From NCBI RefSeq assembly GCF_902170305.1, contig NZ_CABHWW010000023.1:62001-126000 (forward strand): 64,000 bases of DNA. The letters are read 5' to 3'. This document shows, in pieces, positions 46,764 to 62,022 of the stretch; position 1 is the stretch's first letter; every line of letters begins with the position of its first letter. The notes under the pieces were generated by a model, which was not told the DNA's origin, ran no database searches, and was given only the letters and a program-made list of their open reading frames with translations. The DNA is from Yersinia alsatica. Lineage in GTDB: Bacteria > Pseudomonadota > Gammaproteobacteria > Enterobacterales > Enterobacteriaceae. Made by a program: the position numbers and the translations under genes.

Positions 46764-47489
46764 CTAGTGCTCCATCGTCAGTTCAATCATGTCGGCACGG
46801 GTCAGGCTGACGGAGTACTCCGCCACCTGTTGGCTATCAACACAGATATTCAGCGTCCGCACACACAGCAGTGGGGCATGAGTGGCAATTTCCAGTAAAC
46901 GGCTCTCTTTGGCCTGAGCACGGCGCGCACTGATTCGGGTCTGACTACGGCTCAGCGGTTGTTGCAAATTCTGGCTGATAAATTGATGCAGTGAACCGGA
47001 GTTAAAATGTTGCAGAGCGGGCCACCAATTTAGGTCGGGCAGGTAGTGATCGATAACACAGACTGGCACGCCATTGACGCGCCGTAATGTGCGCAAATGG
47101 ATAACGGTCGTTCCTTCAGTCAGTGATAGCGCTTTTGCTACATGCTCAATACACGGGCGTAAAACTGCTAGTAAGCGCTCACTGGTGGGGTCGCTTCCTT
47201 GGTCGAGCAAGTTCTGGCTGAAGCGAGCATTGGCATGCAGCGGGTAGTCATAAGGGCGCATCAGTACCAAAATGCCAATGCCTTGACGGCGCTGCAACCA
47301 ACCGCGCTCAACCAATTCATCTACAGCCCGGCGCAGGGTATGGCGGTTAACTTGATAGCGATCAGCCAGTTGCTGCTCAGAAGGCAAGTAATCGCCACAG
47401 CGATATGCGCCGCGTAGCTCCTGCTCTAGTTGGGCCGCAATTTGTTGATAGCGGGTGGGATAACTGGTCGGTGGTCTAGATAAGTGCAT
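46764..47489 (-). CDS. phnF: PhnF, GntR-family regulator of the phn operon
   Basis: PhnF is a GntR-type regulator of the HutC/UTRA group. The 241-residue protein has an N-terminal winged helix (about 10-75, LADRYQVNRHTLRRAVDELV) and a C-terminal UTRA ligand domain (about 90-235). It starts at ATG 47489 (MHLSRPPTSYPTRYQ), as in E. coli; in-frame upstream starts lack a good Shine-Dalgarno. It is the first gene of phnFGHIJKLMNP. A Pho-box-like half (CTGTCAT on the minus strand at 47632-47638) lies upstream, but the second half is poor. Confidence 0.93.
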   Translation of the reverse strand: MHLSRPPTSYPTRYQQIAAQLEQELRGAYRCGDYLPSEQQLADRYQVNRHTLRRAVDELVERGWLQRRQGIGILVLMRPYDYPLHANARFSQNLLDQGSDPTSERLLAVLRPCIEHVAKALSLTEGTTVIHLRTLRRVNGVPVCVIDHYLPDLNWWPALQHFNSGSLHQFISQNLQQPLSRSQTRISARRAQAKESRLLEIATHAPLLCVRTLNICVDSQQVAEYSVSLTRADMIELTMEH

Positions 47490-47879
47490 GGCGGATATAC
47501 CCTCTCTCAGTATTATCACCACTGACTGTTATCCACGATGAAATGGCAAAAGGACGAATATGGACTGGCAAGTGGTGGCGTGTCATGGCGATAACCAGTA
47601 AGTGATCTCATCGCTATGCTGGCGGTTTTTAATGACAGTTGGGTTAAGCTCAGATGGCGATACGATGAAGTTTATTTGCGGTTATCGGCGAGCGTTTTTA
47701 TCTAGTAAATCGACCTGCTTATAGTAAAAAGATTTATCGCATTATCAATCTGATACATATCCTCACCTAAAAATCTCACATTAAACAAAAAATAAACATT
47801 ATCTTAACTTGAGAGAAACATAAGTGTCTCTTATAGTTATTTTTACGTCGTTGTGACGTTCTCTGTGGGGGGTCATACC
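47490..47879. promoter_or_regulatory. Divergent gap between phnF and the lipoprotein gene
   Basis: This 390-bp gap carries two divergent promoters by inference. I see a weak Pho-box half-site at 47632-47638, AT-rich sequence at 47700-47800, and a small interrupted palindrome (gagag...ctctt) at 47810-47832. No gene is supported. Confidence 0.35.
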
Positions 47880-48983
47880 ATGTGCCCTGATAAAATCAGC
47901 CGTCTGAGCAAAATAAGTCTGGCAATATTACTGGCCTGCTCGCTTGCGGCATGTAGTGGAAGTGGCGGCGGTTCTCACAATACTGCGAAGAATAGTGCCG
48001 GCCAGACAACCGGTGGAACGGGTTCCGGCAGTGATGGCAGTGGCAGCGGAAGCGATGGTAGTGGCGGGGATGGCAGCGGTGGTAGTGGCTCTGGGGGCGG
48101 GACCGGCGGTGGCACGGATAATGGTGGTGGCTCCACAGCGAATAATTCTGCGGTCGGTAATGTGGTCAGTGGTGTCGGGACTGCCGTGGATGGCGTCGGC
48201 AATACTGTCAGTGGTGTTGTTAGCCAAACCCCGGTTGGCAGCTTACCCGTTGTAGGGAGCGGTTTGGTCACCGTGGTTGATAGCGCGGGCAATGCCGTAA
48301 GTGACGTAGGAACCGGTTTACAGAACGGCGTGGGTCAATTGGGAAATAATCCTAATGCATTGGGCACTACAGCTGCTGGCGTACCGAAAGCCGTAGCGGA
48401 TGTTGGAACCGGTGTTTCAGGATTAGGTGGCACAGTTTCAGGTATCGCCGCTAATACCCCATTGGGCGGTGTGACTGGCACGGCGGGCGGATTAGTTTCT
48501 CAGACTGGTGGGGCGGTAACTTCCATCGGTAATGGGTTGGCGCAAGACCTGCAAACCGGGTCGACCAGCAAGTTAACCACTGCGGCGACCGGTATAGTGA
48601 CGCCAGTAGTCGGCCAGGTACAAGATATTACTCAGACCGTGGGGACGACCACCGGCATTGGTGCTCCGGTTAACAATTTACTGACTGCCGTAGGCGGCAC
48701 TGTTGCCACAACCGGTACTCAAGTTGCTACCAATGCACCGGCTTTGGCGGGGGTGGGGCAGGTGCTGCAAGGTACCGGACAGGCGGTTGAGAAAACCGGT
48801 GGCTTAGTTACTCCACCAACCTCTGCAGGTGGCTCGAATGGCTTGCTGGCAGGAGTGAGTAATTCTGTCGGCGGTGTCACCGGTGGATTAAGTGCCGATG
48901 TCTCTGCTAACGCCAATGCTAGCGCCGGTGGTGGGTTATTGGGTGGCGTTGGCGGATTATTGAAGCCAAAAACAACTCATTAA
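47880..48983 (+). CDS. Gly/Ser-rich lipoprotein next to a TpsB transporter
   Basis: The 367-residue protein has a lipoprotein signal peptide ending in LAAC, with Cys25 as the lipidated residue and Ser at +2 (outer-membrane sorting). Residues about 26-95 are almost only Gly, Ser, Asp and Thr. The rest is a low-complexity region with repeated Val/Gly/Thr units (VGNVVSGVG, VDGVGNTVSGV, VSDVGTGLQNGVG, LSADVSANANAS). Databases often label such proteins as collagen-like, but there is no regular G-X-Y repeat. ATG 47880 follows ggggggt with good spacing. The next gene is a TpsB transporter and no TPS exoprotein is nearby, so this lipoprotein may be its cargo. Function unknown. Confidence 0.85.
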   Translation: MCPDKISRLSKISLAILLACSLAACSGSGGGSHNTAKNSAGQTTGGTGSGSDGSGSGSDGSGGDGSGGSGSGGGTGGGTDNGGGSTANNSAVGNVVSGVGTAVDGVGNTVSGVVSQTPVGSLPVVGSGLVTVVDSAGNAVSDVGTGLQNGVGQLGNNPNALGTTAAGVPKAVADVGTGVSGLGGTVSGIAANTPLGGVTGTAGGLVSQTGGAVTSIGNGLAQDLQTGSTSKLTTAATGIVTPVVGQVQDITQTVGTTTGIGAPVNNLLTAVGGTVATTGTQVATNAPALAGVGQVLQGTGQAVEKTGGLVTPPTSAGGSNGLLAGVSNSVGGVTGGLSADVSANANASAGGGLLGGVGGLLKPKTTH

Positions 48984-48986
48984 CTC

Positions 48987-49062
48987 GATACCCTTTGTCG
49001 TTGAAGTTGTTGGGATACTCGCTGCGCTTATTTGCAGCCTGGTTGCAACTCCAATGACCTAG
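48987..49062. repeat. Shortened ERIC-like element
   Basis: The two ends match ERIC termini in opposite orientation: taccctttgtcgttgaagtt at the left, and ggttgcaactccaatgacct at the right. The central palindrome is missing. At about 76 bp it is an internally deleted copy. Confidence 0.5.
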
Positions 49063-49093
49063 CCTGACTCCTTCTTTATTGAGGGAGTCAGGC
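49062..49093 (+). terminator. Strong hairpin between the lipoprotein and tpsB genes
   Basis: Ten-base arms gcctgactcc and ggagtcaggc are exact complements around a 12-base loop. No T run follows on the plus strand. It may reduce but not stop transcription into the transporter gene, or protect the upstream mRNA end. Confidence 0.6.
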
Positions 49094-49151
49094 CATATAA
49101 ATAATAAAAAATATCACAACTATAATTTAATGTGCGCAAAGGAAGTCTCCT

Positions 49152-50882
49152 ATGAATAATAGAGTGTGGCTATTGTTTTTATTTGGTGCAGGCAGCGCAT
49201 GGCAATACAGTGCTTCAGCTAATACCGTCCCCATGCTGATTGATCAGAATAACCCGTCCAGAATATCGCGTGAGATTACTAAACCACAAGCCACACGGAC
49301 AGTGCCGCCAACAATTTCCACTCCGACGCCACATTCTAAATTAACCTTGGATACCTTAATTGAAGTGAAACATATTCAATTTATTGGTGGTACTCGATAT
49401 AACATTAATGTCCTCAGTGAACCCTTTGCCGCTTATATTGGTAAAAAGGTGCCATTAAAGAATTTATTAGTTGCCACCCAGTCTATTACTAAATTGTATC
49501 AGCAAGATGGCTATATTCTTTCTTATGCTTATTTGCCAACGGATAACTTTACCCATGGGACGTTGAAAATAGGTTTGGTGGAAGGCTATATCGCCAATAC
49601 TCGCATTCAAAGTGAAAATGCGGCAATAGGACGCTGGCTGACCAAGCTGTCCCAGCGCATTATGGCAGAGAAGCCACTGACGCAAGATACCTTTGAGCGT
49701 TACAGTATTTTAATGAGCCGGACGCCAGATGCCAAGGTAATCGCCACAGCTAAAAACCCGGATAATATTTATGGCGCGACATTGCTGGATGTTAAAGTTG
49801 ACTATCCACGTCACTGGAATGTCACTACCGCATTGGATAGCCGCAAAGGGGTTTATAGCGGAGTACTGAATGCAACCTTAAGTGGTTTTACGCCTTATGC
49901 TGAACAGTTTGGTGTGGCGACATTATTACCATTAGACAGCAAGAATCGAGACCAATATCTGGGTTTAAATTATCAGCAATATTTAGGCAGTAACGGTTTA
50001 TCATTACAAACTCGTGGCAGTTATTATAAACAAGAACCCAAAGATTATACCGATGTACTGACACTGTATCCGCAGGATATTACCTTATCCAGCCGCACTG
50101 AACAGACGCAATATTCAGGCGGGGTGGTATTAAGTTATCCGTTGCAATTAACACGTAAGCGGCAATGGACAGTGAGTGGCGGTGTAGATTATCTGGAAAA
50201 AAGTTATAATTTAAAAAGCCGCGCTCGTTTTAATACACTTAATAATGCCTTGCTCGATTTAGAGGATCAAAATCAGCGAATGCGTTATCCCGCGGCGGAA
50301 TTGGCACTGACGGGTTATCAAGAATATACCCAATCTTATTGGAGCACGCGTGCCAGTGTGCGCAAGGGAATAAACGGGGCTTTGGCATCCAGTTCAGTTC
50401 CATGGGGGGATTTGGGCTTTACTCGCTGGAAACTTACTGGGGATGCGGCGTATTTAATGGCAGAAAAGTGGCGGTTAAGTGCTTCGGCTGAAGGGGATTG
50501 GTCTGACAATGATCTACCGGAAGCGGAACATGTCACTTTTGGTGGGCTGCGGTTTGGACGCGGTTATCCTGACAGCGAAGCTACCGGTGACTATGGCTAT
50601 GGTGGGCAAGTAGAAATGCGCTATATGCATAATCGGGAAAAGGGCGACTGGCTTAAAACCATCCAACCTTATGCTGTGCTGGATACTGCTCATACTTGGT
50701 ATAACTCGCCGATATTCCGTGCACAAAAATTGGCTTCTTATGCCGTGGGCGTCACCTTGAGTGATAACAAACACTATTCGCTATCACTGGAAGGGGCGAG
50801 GCCAATTGGTGACCTGCCCAGTGATAGTTCGCGCCGCGATTGGCGGTTTAATGCCACGTTGACTTATAACTTTGCAAATTAA
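49152..50882 (+). CDS. TpsB-type outer-membrane transporter (ShlB/FhaC/HecB family)
   Basis: The 576-residue protein has a signal peptide (about 1-23), a Pro/Thr linker, a POTRA region (about 70-190, with GYILSYAYLPTDNFTHGTLK in part) and a 16-strand Omp85-type barrel (about 200-576). The barrel lid loop keeps the family motif FGRGY (about 467) in GGLRFGRGYPDSEA. TpsB proteins secrete a partner exoprotein across the outer membrane. The partner normally has an N-terminal TPS domain; none is encoded here. The upstream lipoprotein is the only candidate. The C-terminus (YNFAN) lacks a final aromatic residue, which is unusual for barrel proteins. Confidence 0.9.
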   Translation: MNNRVWLLFLFGAGSAWQYSASANTVPMLIDQNNPSRISREITKPQATRTVPPTISTPTPHSKLTLDTLIEVKHIQFIGGTRYNINVLSEPFAAYIGKKVPLKNLLVATQSITKLYQQDGYILSYAYLPTDNFTHGTLKIGLVEGYIANTRIQSENAAIGRWLTKLSQRIMAEKPLTQDTFERYSILMSRTPDAKVIATAKNPDNIYGATLLDVKVDYPRHWNVTTALDSRKGVYSGVLNATLSGFTPYAEQFGVATLLPLDSKNRDQYLGLNYQQYLGSNGLSLQTRGSYYKQEPKDYTDVLTLYPQDITLSSRTEQTQYSGGVVLSYPLQLTRKRQWTVSGGVDYLEKSYNLKSRARFNTLNNALLDLEDQNQRMRYPAAELALTGYQEYTQSYWSTRASVRKGINGALASSSVPWGDLGFTRWKLTGDAAYLMAEKWRLSASAEGDWSDNDLPEAEHVTFGGLRFGRGYPDSEATGDYGYGGQVEMRYMHNREKGDWLKTIQPYAVLDTAHTWYNSPIFRAQKLASYAVGVTLSDNKHYSLSLEGARPIGDLPSDSSRRDWRFNATLTYNFAN

Positions 50883-50894
50883 ATCAGGGTGTTA

Positions 50895-51410
50895 TTAGCG
50901 CAGATAATGGATGACTTGATTACCGCTGCCGCGCCAGATAAGTGACGGATCTTTCAGATCTTGCACGAATTTGCCATCGACCAGCACATTAATTAAATCA
51001 ACGACTTGCTGTTGTTCTTCACTCAGTTCAGAGAGCGTGTAACCCGTCCAAAGCCAGATATCTTTGCCGTCGCACTCTTGGCGTACACGTGTTACCAGTT
51101 GCAGGATCGCTGACAAATTTTGCGGATGCAGCGGATCACCGCCGGAGAGGGATAACCCTTGCCGACGGATACGGGAATCATTCAGATCCGCAATGATCTG
51201 ATCTTCCATTTCATCGGTAAATGGCTTACCCGAATTCAGCCGCCAGGTACTTTTGTTATAACAACCCACGCACTCGTGTACACAACCAGAAACGAATAGC
51301 GTACAGCGAGTGCCGGGGCCATTAATAACATCGACTGGGTAGTATTGATGGTAATTTATGATAAATGCCTCCCTCGTACTTGAAGTCGCAGGAGTGTTGG
51401 CTACATTCAC
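50895..51410 (-). CDS. nrdG: NrdG, anaerobic ribonucleotide reductase activase (unusual start)
   Basis: NrdG is the radical SAM activase that makes the glycyl radical on NrdD. The core has the CxxxCxxC cluster motif (CVHECVGC), SLSGGDPLHPQN and LWTGYTL. The family N-terminus is MNYHQYYPVD. Here NYHQYYPVD is present but the preceding codon is ATA (51357-51359), not ATG, while a near-perfect GGAGG lies 8 bases before it. The only standard in-frame start is GTG 51410, which adds 18 residues (ending EAFII) and falls inside an ERIC. Either translation begins at ATA, or the ERIC supplies the start. I give the longest frame. Confidence 0.85.
   Translation of the reverse strand: MNVANTPATSSTREAFIINYHQYYPVDVINGPGTRCTLFVSGCVHECVGCYNKSTWRLNSGKPFTDEMEDQIIADLNDSRIRRQGLSLSGGDPLHPQNLSAILQLVTRVRQECDGKDIWLWTGYTLSELSEEQQQVVDLINVLVDGKFVQDLKDPSLIWRGSGNQVIHYLR

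Positions 51411-61259: not shown

Positions 61260-62022
<763 letters not shown>

Follow-up and report, generated by a model that had tools for sequence, protein, structure and literature searches.

What does a TpsB-type outer-membrane transporter serve when the gene directly before it encodes a lipoprotein, and every protein with a TPS domain lies elsewhere in the genome? The question is raised by a locus of Yersinia alsatica in the window analysed here, that is, the whole stretch of 64,000 nucleotides corresponding to positions 62,001 to 126,000 of contig NZ_CABHWW010000023.1. Two plus-strand genes, first that of the lipoprotein and then that of TpsB, are flanked by phnF (46764-47522, minus strand) and nrdG (50895-51410, minus strand).

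The two genes and their products

Both genes are confirmed where a preliminary description of the locus had placed a lipoprotein directly before a complete TpsB. They lie on the same strand, with 168 bases between the lipoprotein stop and the TpsB start, and have the following features:

47809-47837, plus strand: sigma-70-like promoter match (TTGAGA-17-TATAGT), from a consensus scan alone, for which shuffled sequences give about as many matches
47880-48983, plus strand: lipoprotein gene, 367 aa; open reading frame with orthologues in 28 further loci
47880-47954, plus strand: signal peptide II with LAAC lipobox, read from the sequence; MCPDKISRLSKISLAILLACSLAAC
47955-48149, plus strand: low-complexity Gly/Ser/Asp/Thr linker of ~65 residues, predicted to be disordered (AF2 pLDDT mostly <50)
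48150-48806, plus strand: seven predicted amphipathic helices in which Gly recurs in heptads (AF2, with block means of mostly 55-89)
48258-48812, plus strand: Collagen_mid domain, PF15984 (Pfam profile, 125 bits against a cut-off of 31.1)
49062-49093, plus strand: 13-bp hairpin between the lipoprotein and TpsB genes (RNA fold z = -5.65)
49152-50882, plus strand: TpsB-type outer-membrane transporter, 576 aa (POTRA_2 and ShlB Pfam matches; AF2 model)
49362-49586, plus strand: POTRA 1, a POTRA_2 domain at residues 71-145 (Pfam match)
49587-49802, plus strand: POTRA 2, residues about 146-217 (secondary structure of the AF2 model)
49815-50870, plus strand: beta-barrel, residues about 222-573 (AF2 model; ShlB domain)
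50553-50567, plus strand: FGRGY, the loop 6 motif of TpsB/Omp85 (sequence; clade consensus FGGxRFGRGYPD)

A G-rich, ribosome-binding-like stretch precedes the lipoprotein ATG at 47880, and an alternative in-frame GTG start is possible at 47853. The intergenic hairpin has a clear counterpart of other sequence at the equivalent place in two related loci (L018 and L019) and a weak one in two more (L016 and L017). It is possibly an attenuator or an mRNA processing site and, as a guess, could set a high ratio of lipoprotein to transporter.

The downstream protein, whose closest relative is a TpsB of Y. frederiksenii ATCC 33641 (96% identity), scores 56 bits for POTRA_2 and 38 bits for ShlB, both above cut-off, and each of the 25 clade members that were scanned also matches these two families. 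Its AF2 model (pLDDT 82.7, pTM 0.77) finds CdiB 6wim (E 2.5e-24, TM 0.69) and FhaC 4ql0 as the top solved structures in Foldseek. With these domains and structural matches it is therefore a bona fide TpsB, and the POTRA region and FGRGY-bearing barrel reported from the first reading are borne out by Pfam, model and motif alike. The C-terminus of the barrel, then regarded as odd, turns out to be a minor matter: the chain runs on for a few residues past its final aromatic one (YNFAN), and relatives end in a similar manner (YNFSAGS, SYQLD).

The upstream protein is the single PF15984 protein in the whole source genome, and a Pfam scan finds no TPS domain (PF05860) in it. Its lipidated Cys, encoded at 47952-47954, is invariant across 32 aligned relatives, as expected of the signal peptide II lipobox of a surface lipoprotein, and is followed by Ser at +2. 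In enterics, Ser at this position directs sorting to the outer membrane. The body had been described as Gly-rich and of low complexity, which holds for the linker; the remainder is instead the conserved PF15984 domain. Linker and repeat lengths vary between species in the alignment. In the AF2 model, whose confidence is moderate (mean pLDDT 63.4, pTM 0.44), seven helices span residues 67-285 with disorder on both flanks. Hydrophobicity averaged over the alignment has a period of 3.5-3.7 in each of the seven helix segments, with boundaries taken from the AF2 model, and none of 500 permutations was as strong; over the whole 67-285 stretch the period is 3.7, and one of 500 permutations was equally strong. 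Gly autocorrelation within the helical region reaches 0.35 at a lag of 7, and the periodicity test detects no helical hydrophobic period in the linker. The Collagen_mid domain is thus predicted to consist of Gly-heptad alpha-helices, neither collagen nor the beta-helix of a type Vb exoprotein, a prediction of moderate confidence drawn from the AF2 model and a hydrophobic period of 3.6.

A true collagen triple helix was considered for this protein and ruled out, given its predicted helices and its lack of long GXY repeats; for the Collagen_mid region, the 'collagen' of the family name is misleading. No fold neighbour of the lipoprotein was found in the PDB at E <= 0.001. An NPNALGTT stretch (48348-48371) recalls the NPN motifs of TPS domains and is probably due to chance, because relatives retain just an N..xGTT-like pattern.

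Distribution and descent of the pair

Searched from the TpsB side, GTDB genomes contain nine relatives (four Yersinia, three Rahnella, Rouxiella and Limnobaculum), all nine with the lipoprotein immediately upstream and spread over three different gene neighbourhoods. Settings in which the pair occurs include phnF/nrdG, cysG/trpS and pnp. Four megaplasmid loci of Cupriavidus and Caballeronia are also paired, and their lipoproteins match PF15984; in two of them (L039 and L040) TpsB reads in two frames. A search from the PF15984 side, covering class, order, phylum and family samples, gave 22 genomes over the cut-off. In 21 of them a TpsB of this type follows immediately, on the same strand, split in two frames in one case (G866, L104), and the 22nd match (G855, L101) is at a contig edge. 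The pairing is therefore exclusive in all 21 assessable genomes, a count of interrelated genomes and hence not of independent events, which answers the call of the preliminary description for a survey of co-occurrence.

Within the 399-genome Pseudomonadota sample, PF15984 exceeds its cut-off in 13 genomes, and a search with the TpsB alignment returns the same 13, at 685-775 bits. The next score, 415 bits, belongs to a genome (G782) in which the gene before TpsB encodes a repetitive lipoprotein that PF15984 does not match. Scores then drop to near 239; among these genomes, G529, G609, G605 and G531 have neighbours that resemble ordinary exoproteins, judged by appearance rather than by a TPS-domain scan. 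Below-cut-off PF15984 matches in G042, G139, G224 and G423 are taken as composition, and no pair was present in the two such loci read (L046 and L047). E. coli genomes gave no DNA match. A tblastn search of plasmids with the Collagen_mid region was likewise negative, a result that is uninformative because plasmid loci reached through TpsB do carry PF15984.

Genomes with two, three or five Collagen_mid proteins keep one TpsB of the clade type, so that the ratio ranges from one to five lipoproteins per TpsB. No third conserved gene accompanies the pair in the loci read. In one genome (G160, L043:1442-2419), the gene behind the pair encodes a secreted, Val/Gly/Ala-rich protein of 325 aa with no Pfam match.

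In Yersinia, the lipoprotein is present in 11 of 25 genomes, exactly those with an intact TpsB adjoining nrdG, and the other 14 have neither gene intact. In ten of these, phnF directly faces nrdG, leaving an empty site; in three, neither gene adjoins nrdG in the stretch that was read; and in the last (G880, L172), TpsB fragments without a lipoprotein lie between phnF and nrdG, a decayed copy that we interpret as loss in progress. The two genes thus come and go as a unit.

A maximum-likelihood tree of 42 TpsBs, with a small outgroup of 13 of which some branches are long, places the 28 PF15984-paired TpsBs in one clade (support 100/100, stem 0.64). The lipoprotein and TpsB form a dedicated, evolutionarily stable partnership. 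Chance neighbourhood was also considered, and is ruled out because both reading frames, and their pairing, are conserved across several families.

The neighbours of the paired clade are three sphingomonad TpsBs, one of which (L041) immediately follows a Gly-rich lipoprotein that PF15984 does not match. Other plasmid-borne TpsB genes have further neighbours. On plasmid pSRL2 of Sphingobium indicum (L113:3737-7827), a TpsB near the clade has behind it a 2OG-Fe(II) oxygenase and a lipoprotein whose (G-P-S/T)n repeats are genuinely collagen-like, and the oxygenase is also present in L118; since the 2OG-Fe(II) oxygenase superfamily includes prolyl hydroxylases, it is conceivable that L113 gives rise to a collagen-like surface protein that is hydroxylated. 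Two Azospirillum plasmids (L042 and L116) have TpsB genes directly behind genes with adenylate/guanylate cyclase domains, in stretches with no annotated TPS-domain protein, possibly another unusual TpsB partnership. On a Mesorhizobium ciceri plasmid (L115:1666-5653), a gene annotated as 'serine hydrolase' immediately precedes TpsB, again with no TPS-domain protein annotated nearby.

Probable surface display and its alternatives

The locus probably encodes a variant of the two-partner (type Vb) pathway, one for the surface display of an outer-membrane lipoprotein. The lipoprotein would pass Sec, be lipidated at its Cys and, as its Ser at +2 suggests, be sent to the outer membrane. Kept unfolded, it would be recognised through its helical Collagen_mid domain by both POTRA domains of TpsB and threaded through the barrel, the body being displayed outside and the N-terminal lipid serving as its anchor in the outer membrane. 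With Gly-heptad helices, in place of a beta-helix, folding outside, passage would be possible in one direction only. The displayed protein is probably an adhesin or a surface-coat protein. On a broader scale, where we are somewhat less confident, we favour the reading that a dedicated TpsB branch displays alpha-helical proteins that have a lipid anchor and no TPS domain. This would be a lipoprotein two-partner secretion analogous to Slam, present across gamma- and betaproteobacteria, with sphingomonad relatives.

Two, three or five Collagen_mid proteins per TpsB are what one would expect if these proteins are cargo and not a subunit, and the copy ratio, the variable linker and repeat lengths and the lack of a third conserved gene fit one transporter with several substrates. 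The same observations bear on a possible, if unlikely, alternative in which the lipoprotein is a periplasmic accessory anchored in the outer membrane (a chaperone, plug or tether) and the true cargo is some other protein that lacks a TPS domain. Lipoprotein accessories do exist, both for two-partner systems, as with BcpO in bcp operons, and for BamA, and a subunit would be expected to show an equally strict co-occurrence. However, up to five paralogues per transporter and such variation in length would be unusual for a subunit, so that the accessory reading fits less well, and, since no other conserved gene adjoins the pair in the loci read, an alternative cargo gene is not in sight.

A ratio of one to five lipoproteins per TpsB is also ill suited to a fixed complex. 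This makes it quite improbable that both proteins make up a single outer-membrane complex with a task other than protein export, in which, for example, a barrel-held lipoprotein exposes only its linker, although RcsF, which according to a 2020 review (PMC7857515) is translocated by BamA and passes through barrel proteins, offers a precedent.

The transporter could, finally, serve a classical exoprotein encoded elsewhere. The source genome holds seven TPS-domain proteins, all away from the pair, in agreement with the first reading; the nearest is ~43 kb off with its own TpsB. Six of the seven adjoin a TpsB. The exception, a protein of 1687 aa on contig C33 (L015:3964-9027), has no TpsB nearby and could borrow any TpsB because none adjoins it. 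A TPS-domain exoprotein specific for this TpsB had been named as the finding that would speak against a lipoprotein substrate; this check comes out in favour of the first reading, although in the source genome the C33 protein is a TpsA that no TpsB adjoins. As a general partner, a classical TpsA elsewhere is ruled out by genomes without any TPS domain: of the 29 genomes that carry the pair, 8 lack PF05860 altogether, including the nearly complete G412, G160, G861 and G822, so a TPS-domain cargo is not what keeps the paired TpsB. The reading in which the lipoprotein is a mere neighbour of a TpsB serving, for example, the C33 protein can draw on the excess of seven TPS-domain proteins over six TpsBs, but is very improbable in view of these genomes, of a TpsB clade that tracks PF15984 across families, and of the joint gain and loss of both genes in Yersinia.

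If display through TpsB is correct, TpsB proteins can export substrates that have neither a TPS domain nor a beta-helix nor a free N-terminus, which would bear on how POTRA domains recognise their substrates and on whether export is driven by the folding of a beta-helix. It would also add a route for surface lipoproteins, for which the 2020 review expects that further systems probably exist (PMC7857515), and would supply a transporter for a large and poorly understood family of proposed adhesins, PF15984, with 1690 betaproteobacterial and 563 gammaproteobacterial sequences (PMC10224339).

Comparison with known systems

The pair shares with the type Vb systems FhaC/FhaB, ShlB/ShlA and CdiB/CdiA a transporter of two POTRA domains and a barrel, and the arrangement of cargo and transporter as a gene pair. 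It differs in that the partner is a signal peptide II lipoprotein, predicted to be helical and devoid of a TPS domain, and in that several partners, linked or unlinked, can go with a single TpsB. All TpsA proteins are described as predicted beta-helical (PMC5422565), and no TpsB substrate described as lipidated or helical was found in the literature. A lipoprotein gene inside a two-partner operon also occurs in some Burkholderia bcpAIOB operons, whose BcpO is an accessory and predicted periplasmic lipoprotein (PMC5422565); BcpO, however, accompanies the TPS-domain protein BcpA, whereas the window pair is without a TpsA.

Closest to the lipoprotein itself are the Bcc-CLPs of the Burkholderia cepacia complex, which belong to the same Pfam family (PF15984) and are likewise lipoproteins with low-complexity flanks; they have been put forward as adhesins, and contact with host membranes induces three of them (PMC10224339). 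BCAL1524-BCAL1523-BCAL1522 encode two lipoproteins followed by an outer-membrane protein (1686 bp), as in L086 and L089, and because the layouts match, BCAL1522 is very probably of the same TpsB type. The study on the Bcc-CLPs lists it as a heme-utilisation-related outer-membrane protein and does not put forward a transporter (PMC10224339); nor did the open-licence literature yield a link between PF15984 lipoproteins and a TpsB.

Among the routes taken by surface lipoproteins, the available part of the 2020 review names T2SS, autotransporter, BAM and Slam, and no two-partner route (PMC7857515). The lipidated autotransporter NalP (type Va; PMC7857515) resembles the window system in that a lipoprotein is displayed, or in the window system would be displayed, through a type V barrel, and differs in that its barrel and passenger form one chain in place of two separate genes. 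The likeness to Slam (PMC7857515) lies in a dedicated outer-membrane barrel whose gene adjoins that of a lipoprotein displayed, or at the window pair presumably displayed, on the surface. The barrel proteins themselves differ: Slam contains TPRs and a barrel predicted to have 14 strands, whereas the window protein, with its POTRA_2 and ShlB domains and a fold that matches TpsB in place of a TPR domain and Slam barrel, combines POTRA domains with a TpsB barrel.
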